Part shown: positions 28,109 through 31,100 of the stretch, piece after piece
How the letters are laid out: each line of letters opens with the position of its first letter
Position numbering within the stretch: the stretch's first letter is position 1
DNA from: Antedon mediterranea
Lineage: Eukaryota; Echinodermata; Crinoidea; Comatulida; Antedonidae
DNA: 64,000 nt
Direction: 5' to 3'
NCBI RefSeq assembly: GCF_964355755.1
Contig: NC_092671.1
Coordinates: forward strand, 749,001-813,000
The notes under the pieces: generated by a model
Seen by the model: only the letters and a program-made list of their open reading frames with translations
What the model was told of the DNA's origin: nothing
Database searches by the model: none
Program-made: the position numbers and the translations under genes

Positions 28109-31100
28109 CCCCATTCCAAGGCCTTTACAAACTCTTCTTCTGTAAACGACAGCAGTTTAGCAGCTTCTATATGCATCTGAAAGTCAAAGCAAACGCACAC
28201 ATTTATGTTAAATTATAGCAGCTACACTCATGTTCTGCTATATCCTGGTAAATATAACCAGGTCATGATTATGCACAACAGGTCAAGTGGACAGAAGTGC
28301 AAACATACTAAACCGCATTACTCTATTAAAGCTATATTCACGGAAAGGAAGACTGCTGTTTTGTTAAATAATGAAAAATCAAATAAAGAATTGCATAAGC
28401 CCTTCGTTCCATGAAATAGAAGCGTGATGTCATTGTACCCTAATTGATATAGATACAGCAATACTAAAACCGTATTACTCTATTAAAGCTATATTCAAAC
28501 TTGTTTTGTTTCACGGAAGGAAGACTAGTGAATGGAACACATTAATATAGATACAGCAATATACATATACTATAATGTATGTTTGTGAGTTGAATGGGCA
28601 GAATATAGATACAGCAATATACATATACTGTAATGTATGTTTGTGAGTTGAATGGGCAGAATATTTTCATGAGTTGAAAGATTGATTGTGAGCAGAGCTG
28701 AGTTAAATAAGATAGTCAGGCTTTCAACTCATAGTACCTACAATCTAGGGAAGGGGTAGGAGAATAATGCACAGCATGAGATACAAACCAACCAATCAAA
28801 TGGCAAGGAGGTATGTCATGACAATAGTCTGATATACCTTTTGTCTTTTGAGAATATCAATCAACTTGAGTTGCTTTTTAAAACCAGTCATTAACTCATT
28901 CTTTTGTTTATTCAGAAGTTTATTTTCAGCTTGCAGCTGCTCTAAATGCTTTCTGTCTTGCTCAGAGGTATCCTGAAATAAACAAAAGTGGGTTGCCTCA
29001 ACTTTTTAAAATATTTCTAAATAAACTAAAGCTCTGTATACACTATCAAACTAGTTTGACTAAAAAAAAAGCGTGATGTGCCTAAATATGGTAGTGATAT
29101 GCCCAAATATGGTAATGATATGACATCATCATGTCCATATATGAGTACATTTTTTTGTCAAATAAATTTGATAGTGTAGATGATAGAGCTTTACATTTTT
29201 CCATTCATGACCAAACCAATAAAACATATATTTTTATATGATATAAATGTACCATCTTACCCTTGAAGATTGTTTATTCTGCTGAATCTGTGCTTTGTAT
29301 TTCTCAATTTCTTCAAACGCTCTGTTTAGCCTGATATCTGTCACATTCTGTGTGGCTGATGACTGTTTATTGGACCTCTTCATAGAATCAATTTCCTAAC
29401 AAACAATGGAAATGTTTATTATAGTACATAGTGCAAACTTTGTATATATATCTTATATGCAATGTGTAGTATATTTAGTATGCTTACCTTTCTCAGACTT
29501 GTCAACTGTGTCTATAGTGTATCTATCTTATATGCAATGTGTAGTATATTTAGTATGCTTACCTTTCTCAGACTTGCCAACTGTGTCTATAGTGTATCTA
29601 TCTTATATGCAATGTGTAGTATATTTAGTATGCCTTACCTTTCTCAGACTTGTCAACTGTGTCTATAGTGTATCTATCTTATATGCAATGTGTAGTATAT
29701 TTAGTATGCTTACCTTTCTCAGACGTGACAACTGTGTCTATAGTGTATCTATCTTATATGCAATGTGTAGTATATTTAGTATGCTTACCTTTCTCAGACT
29801 TGTCAACTGTGTCTATAGTGTATCTATCTTATATGCAATGTGTAGTATATTTAGTATGCTTACCTTTCTCAGACCTGCCAACTGTGTCTATAGTGTATCT
29901 ATCTTATATGCAATGTGTAGTATACTTAGTATGCTTACCTTTCTCAGACTTGTCAACTGTGTCTATAGTGTATCTATCTTATATGCAATGTGTAGTATAT
30001 TTAGTATGCTTACCTTTCTCAGACTTGCCAACTGTGTCTATAGTGTATCTATCTTATATGCAATGTGTAGTATATTTAGTATGCTTACCTTTCTCAGACT
30101 TGTCAACTGTGTCTATAGTGTATCTATCTTATATGCAATGTGTAGTATATTTAGTATGCTTACCTTTCTCAGACTTGTCAACTGTGTCTATAGTGTATCT
30201 ATCTTATATGCAATGTGTAGTATATTTAGTATGCTTACCTTTCTCAGACTTGTCAACTGTGTCTATAGTGTATCTATCTTATATGCAATGTGTAGTATAT
30301 TTAGTATGCTTACCTTTCTCAGACTTGTCAACTGTGTCTATAGTGTATCTATCTTATATGCAATGTGTAGTATATTTAGTATGCTTACCTTTCTCAGACC
30401 TGCCAACTGTGCCTCTAAAGTGTCTATCTTTTTCTTGCCATCTTCTGACATCTTTTTATACTTTTCAATTTGTGCTTGTTGTCCCGATGTTGTTTTGTGA
30501 AGTCTTGATTTCTCATCTTCAACAGATTTTAATTGATTCTTTAACTTGTAATTGTTATCATCCTAAAGTACAAAAATAAGACAGATTTGTATAATGTCAA
30601 AAAGTATTACTTCAAAGTGGTTTTACAAAGCATATCATAGCTTAAAATGTGTCCACAGTTGTATGCATTAGACATACCTTCTGAGTATCATCACATGGAG
30701 TGGGGCAACTCATTTTGTTTGCCTTTAAAAGGGTCCTACAGAACTTTCAACGTAGTATAGGCAGACAGTGGTCTGAAGACCCTAGGCTGTCTGGTATTGT
30801 GCAAGTTAACTGTATGTTTACCTTGGTTACACAATCCTGACCCAATCTTTCTAACTCTTCTTGCATCACTCTCAATTTGGCTTTTAGAAAGCGAATCGTT
30901 GCCTCTGAAATAAACCAAAAAATGTATTAGCTTTTAAAAAGCAAATCAGTGCCTTTCGTGTGAACTTTAAAGAACCCAATGCTTCTTTCAAGAGTAAGGA
31001 GTTACTCCAATGTACTGTTCAACCTCAGCCTTTGCCATTGTAGGCAGACTACTTTCAGAAGAGTTACCCCAATGTACTAACTGGTATGTCTCAAGCTTTG

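Follow-up and report, generated by a model that had tools for sequence, protein, structure and literature searches.

Choice among identical neighbouring splice sites is usually studied with artificial constructs. In human, the minisatellite of IFI6 (6-16), which has a unit of about 12 nt, is said to give multiple splice donor sites, an observation attributed to Turri et al., 1995. Two downstream repeat units of IFI6 are reported to be used as donors (PMC4526556). Tandem repeats across exon-intron boundaries were named mirages in the amphioxus gene Adh3, and further examples are described for the globin genes BflGb6 and BflGb9, troponin C and PGBD5 (PMC3087553; PMC3902484). According to these reports, mirages hit 5′ as well as 3′ boundaries, many units copy the splice signal, and unit lengths are 10–72 bp in Adh3 and 150–160 bp in the globins; moreover, two haplotypes of one globin gene differ in array length, and Adh3 is somatically unstable (PMC3087553; PMC3902484). 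Regular splicing is reportedly left undisturbed, as examined for the globins by RT-PCR (PMC3087553; PMC3902484), so that the precedents conflict, with silent repeats reported in amphioxus and downstream donors reported in use in human IFI6. In the part of it considered here, a paper on amphioxus huntingtin mentions tandem repeats, but not mirages (PMC2206037). Two further systems are related. Tandem duplication of AGGT-containing segments is described as a route to intron gain (Rogers model; e.g., ATP2A1 and potato RdRp; PMC4974935), and internal tandem repeats in human segmental duplications reportedly alter genes and may form novel introns (PMC2812944).

The array described here, found in a TEX9-like gene of Antedon mediterranea, belongs to the known, yet seldom described kind of repeat called mirage, i.e., a minisatellite across an exon-intron boundary. 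As in the amphioxus examples, its units straddle the boundary and repeat the splice signals, and coding continuity marks the end copy, adjacent to the intronic ones, as the authentic boundary. Splicing of the amphioxus globins was reportedly followed by RT-PCR, whereas the arrays of this study are known from DNA sequence alone. With human IFI6 the array shares units that offer donors beside an exon end; however, IFI6 has a short unit and reportedly uses downstream donors, whereas the extra donors of the TEX9-like gene add a stop. The AGGT model, as described, has local tandem duplication of donor-bearing sequence in common with our locus, but creates a new intron, whereas the TEX9-like intron merely lengthens and its acceptor is unchanged. 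Intron gain of this type was considered for the locus and rejected, since, in the coding reading, the whole array lies inside one intron and no new intron position is needed. The repeats of segmental duplications are likewise minisatellite-sized and in some cases located at exon-intron boundaries, but are described for primate paralogues and lie to about one half in coding sequence (PMC2812944). What is new here is that exon-boundary donor arrays recur across one genome and in several genes; among the titles and abstracts listed in literature searches, none described a genome-wide census of boundary-spanning arrays, which is no proof that none exists.

The TEX9-like gene and its minisatellite

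Within the window, by which we mean the whole stretch of 64,000 nucleotides analysed, located at C2:749001-813000 of the assembly, six exons on the minus strand join as one open frame through to a stop. We take this gene to be TEX9-like from its resemblance to the human protein. A Pfam search with the predicted protein returned weak coiled-coil matches alone, all below the cut-offs, and the best hit of a PDB search had an E value of 0.12. TEX9 itself is described as a ciliary protein, and its knockdown in planarians reportedly results in shorter cilia (PMC13133735). The exons, each placed by the joined open frame, and the elements of the array are as follows:

31314..31495, minus strand: upstream TEX9-like exon
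30822..30904, minus strand: upstream TEX9-like exon
30389..30562, minus strand: TEX9-like coding exon of 174 nt, phase 0, DDNNYK...LAGLRK; its last 42 nt are the terminal array unit
30381..30388, minus strand: exon-proximal donor GTAAGCAT, authentic by coding, as joining to the exon at 29395 keeps the frame open
29445..30430, minus strand: 75-bp minisatellite of 13 copies, each with the donor GAAAG/GTAAG (repeat call and motif count)
29480..29487, minus strand: intron-proximal donor copy, which would give a 92-nt intron (computed intron length)
29396..29415, minus strand: acceptor ACATTTCCATTGTTTGTTAG of the 993-nt intron, placed by coding continuity
29261..29395, minus strand: following TEX9-like exon, phase 0
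28838..28972, minus strand: downstream TEX9-like exon
28102..28176, minus strand: final TEX9-like exon, ending in the stop

Tandem Repeats Finder called the array, as assembled, at 29445-30430 with a period of 75, 13.1 copies and 97% matches. Each unit, consisting of 42 nt of exon end and 33 nt of intron start, keeps the splice signal GAAAG/GTAAG (13/13), and the string GAAAGGTAAG, counted on both strands, occurs 13 times in the window, always inside the array and on the minus strand. The donor G lies at 30388, 30313, 30238, 30163, 30088, 30013 and 29938 in units 1–7 and at 29863, 29788, 29713, 29638, 29562 and 29487 in units 8–13. This bears out the first-pass annotation, which had proposed 75-bp units carrying an exon-end motif and a donor, with about 12 near-identical donors behind the real one; twelve were counted within the intron. 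The exon-end motif proposed there holds in part: it is repeated with the donor in all 13 units, but its end varies. The exon copy (unit 1) ends in GGTCTGAGAAAG, as does unit 8, while AGTCTGAGAAAG is found in 10 of the 12 intronic copies and CGTCTGAGAAAG in unit 10. Moreover, unit 11 (donor 29638) carries a 1-bp insertion and reads GTAAGGC.

In a DNA search, the array was found as a single locus in the 354-Mb genome. Family searches of the assembly for COX1 and GFP gave no match, the GFP control being empty as well. It is scarcely credible that it represents an assembly artefact, i.e., one copy inflated or a longer array collapsed: several units bear variants of their own, similar arrays with different units occur in other genes, and the 354 Mb in 18 contigs point to a long-read, chromosome-scale assembly.

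Tandem arrays with a period of at least 15 and at least 2.9 copies make up 6264 of the 64000 bases of the window (9.8%). A second minisatellite of the TEX9-like gene (27801-28107, minus strand, 73 bp × 4.2) starts at the last codon and the stop codon (28104-28102) and extends into the 3′ flank. On the plus strand, the frames at 25970-26651 of the window, which end in KSWCGC, resemble the C-terminus of a Rab GTPase.

The probable working donor and its copies

Joined in silico to the following exon, donor 1 leaves the frame open, whereas donors 2–13 lead to a stop, and for this reason the exon-proximal donor appears to be the working site. The stop is common to all twelve downstream donors: after 16 extra residues, the frame ends at a TAG, which is codon 75 when numbering begins with the exon. 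Owing to the insertion in unit 11, use of donors 12 and 13 would additionally shift the frame. Three earlier proposals are thereby supported, namely that the terminal unit is the real donor of exon 30562-30389, as coding continuity indicates, that an in-frame TAG lies within the copied piece of exon and that any downstream donor (12/12) would cause a premature stop.

The intronic copies are not weak, as they pair with U1 better than the other four donors of the gene. We computed U1 pairing energies of −9.5 kcal/mol for the array donors and −10.0 kcal/mol for unit 11, compared with −6.8, −8.9, −5.7 and −7.7 kcal/mol for the other four. Better U1 pairing, together with a last donor that leaves an intron of 92 nt, counts against the explanation of the extra donors as decoys. 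Nevertheless, they are most likely passive decoys, as far as coding sequence can tell, and we infer a near-exclusive use of donor 1.

An alternative option could be a competition among donors, as raised in the first-pass annotation, in which some transcripts use donors 2–13 and copy number tunes TEX9 output, every such transcript ending in the same truncated protein or in decayed mRNA. Twelve further intact and strong donors with a common stop would fit this option, as would human IFI6 with its two downstream repeat donors reported in use (PMC4526556). However, the amphioxus mirages are reported to be silent (PMC3087553; PMC3902484), and the same architecture in other genes of this genome, with 13 matched decoys in DHX8 and about 80 in DNAH3, suggests tolerance rather than regulation, so that we consider such competition unlikely.

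It is less probable still that the intron-proximal donor dominates and productive TEX9 mRNA represents a minority. Splice sites are reported to pair preferentially with the nearest partner across the intron where introns are short, and across the exon where they are long (PMC9225289), and the ancestral intron deduced below would have been short. However, if the 92-nt intron dominated, the predominant transcript of a ciliary gene would contain a stop, and the same would apply to DHX8, where the last donor lies 86 nt from the acceptor. The arrays set the two pairing rules against each other, as the proximal pair is short, yet coding requires the exon-proximal donor. The best explanation for the exon-proximal choice is exon definition combined with earlier transcription: donor 1 would close the exon after its own acceptor and would be transcribed first, and any leak to the other donors would yield a shortened protein from an mRNA that is probably prone to decay.

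A translated repeat, or an array that belongs to a plus-strand gene, is barely conceivable. On the plus strand, frames that measure 366 and 316 aa from stop to stop do run through the array, but the 75-bp unit is divisible by 3, so that an open frame recurs automatically, and the frame is in part antisense to a coding exon. Read in the sense direction, the TEX9 frame is closed by the TAG of the second unit. An antisense repeat protein was rejected on the same grounds, i.e., the open plus-strand frame follows from the 75-bp unit and is antisense to a coding exon.

Origin and spread of the array

The borders of the duplicated segment carry a short match, present once in the exon, 42 nt 5′ of the donor, and again in the intron right after the last unit:

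30425..30430, minus strand: AAGATA, exon-side copy of the border microhomology
29449..29454, minus strand: AAGATA, intron-side copy of the border microhomology, directly after the last unit

According to a rough estimate, a 6-bp match exactly at the border is expected in well under 1% of duplication borders. Such microhomology supports the earlier suggestion that the duplication began at the exon-intron border and spread into the intron. Without the extra units the intron would comprise about 92 nt, which was probably about its ancestral length.

Between the exon copy and the array consensus, seven of the 42 exonic positions differ, but none of the 33 intronic ones. All seven differences lie between −34 and −12, and identity extends over the final 11 nt of the exon and the 33 intronic nt; the real donor therefore seems, from this pattern, to lie inside the homogenised part. 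For a cut that was chosen post hoc, the probability of finding all seven among the first 31 of the 75 positions amounts to 0.0013. Three of the differences are silent, three change an amino acid and one makes the TAG, which we take as derived in the array since the exon itself is open. Unit 8 matches the exon at −15 and −12 and may be the oldest unit type or a product of conversion.

Altogether, we hold it to be quite likely that the array is a mirage which arose by a microhomology-led 75-bp duplication and subsequent expansion, and whose intronic donors are mostly silent decoys. The order of events can be envisaged as follows. AAGATA microhomology would have allowed the 75-bp segment to duplicate at the 5′ end of an intron of about 92 nt, and with the exon-proximal donor staying in use, the duplicate copy would have become intronic. 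Freed of coding constraint, this copy could have acquired the four protein-changing differences, including the stop. The unit would then have expanded to 12 intronic copies, with homogenisation extending into the last 11 nt of the exon.

Microhomology at array borders is not general, which counts against the above explanation. Among eight arrays compared, five borders were readable, with matches of 6 bp (TEX9), 8 bp (DHX8), 5 bp (PPP1R21) and about 1 bp (L004 and L019); the other three arrays have no readable border, the last unit being partial.

Exon-boundary arrays elsewhere in the genome

The genome was scanned with three donor strings, exact 9-mers required three times in a row within set spacings. 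Scanning with AAAGGTAAG gave 172 hits, and five arrays were inspected among the matches listed; CAGGTAAGT gave 80 hits and 7 arrays, AAGGTAAGA 45 hits and 10 arrays. An over-representation of donor arrays was not adopted from these raw hits, since the ratios to a backwards control were 172:113, 80:19 and 45:88 and a few large arrays dominate.

The flanks of all 22 donor-motif arrays, the TEX9-like one included, were read, several exons being assigned from splice-site context and open frames. In 8 of the 22, homology or gene context identifies the first unit as a real exon end, namely in DNAH3, DHX8, ABCC, PPP1R21, a Miga-like gene, two SRCR paralogues and the TEX9-like gene. In four more an exon is assigned by open frame alone, without a Pfam match (L004, L016, L018, which is weak, and L019); the first of these looked CPT1-like, but was left unnamed. 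No first-unit exon is visible in the remaining 10 of 22 (L005, L006, L008, L009, L015, L017, L020, which is unclear, L021, L022 and L023).

Homology extends across the junction or the exon in four of the 22 arrays. The donor-1 junction of DHX8 aligns 102/102 residues to human DHX8 (E 6.7e-58) and that of ABCC 122/123 residues to ABCC8 (E 3e-24), in both cases without insertion. The same holds for DNAH3 (109/110 residues, no insertion, E 4e-45), where the top match of the search (6.4e-46) is another entry, a dynein-length chain with a different molecule name. In PPP1R21, the array exon matches PF10212 (E 1.3e-15). In three further arrays the next exon is homologous and the array exon open: one SRCR gene matches PF00530 (E 1.5e-31), the other is assigned via a near-identical next exon, and the Miga-like gene (E 1.7e-5, 24.4 bits) lies just below the Pfam cut-off of 25.

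The DNAH3 array (L002/L003; C1:19363311-19368751) extends over about 5.4 kb with a 68-bp unit and 81 unit positions from the first donor at 19368751 to the last at 19363311; at least one donor between them is altered, leaving about 80. By comparison, two amphioxus BflGb6 haplotypes are reported to carry 6 and 3 copies. The gene of the splicing helicase DHX8 (L007, C1:17.776M) features a 37-bp donor array with 14 matched donors, and all 13 beyond the first give a stop. Two neighbouring SRCR genes (L011, L012, L013 and L043; C6:30.480M and 30.504M) share a 53-bp donor array that spans, by position, about 30 units in one paralogue and 17 in the other, which implies a change of copy number since the gene duplication or after an exchange. 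The distance from last donor to acceptor is 92 nt in the TEX9-like gene, 86 nt in DHX8, 140 nt in L004, 181 nt in DNAH3, 297 nt in ABCC and 360 nt in one SRCR gene. Of 11 exon-end arrays compared, only two have a period divisible by 3, a result in keeping with untranslated units.

Acceptors are affected as well. Arrays of TTTTNCAG were scanned, and 18 3′ edges picked from the matches listed were then fetched, three of which show an exon start:

L037, L030, L029: exon starts with acceptor minisatellites, one at DDX54 and one of about 1.9 kb

At DDX54 the exon is assigned by homology (E 9.3e-14), at L029 and L037 by open frames without a Pfam match; the array at L037 comprises about 1.9 kb with a 79-bp period and about 24 units. 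The acceptor pattern is far less specific than the donor pattern, with hits versus backwards control of 395:185 and 774:23957, and a tighter acceptor pattern, scanned across the genome, had 0 hits as against 3 in the control. A tolerance restricted to donors was rejected in view of these 3 of 18 chosen edges. Both kinds of boundary are hence affected, the coding boundary in these cases being the exon-proximal copy as far as homology and open frames indicate.

These loci provide natural arrays in which between 3 and about 80 near-identical donors adjoin a single real exon end, and the affected genes include DHX8, whose correct splicing is hardly dispensable. It is a tentative thought, and one we would not yet favour, that tandem duplication of splice sites is a recurrent force lengthening short introns while the spliceosome nearly always picks the exon-proximal site. 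If true, exon-proximal choice would hold among about 80 donors in DNAH3, 14 matched ones in DHX8 and about 24 acceptors at an open-frame exon, and the arrays could serve as a natural titration of exon against intron definition or possibly form U1-rich platforms within introns.

Apart from the 22 arrays, an extra donor array lies on the other strand of L031, where a HEAT match (0.0097) is below the cut-off. Moreover, 68-bp arrays with TTTTTTCAGTGCTT occur at C1:959303, C1:37591262 and C1:37655764 and probably represent a dispersed repeat family.
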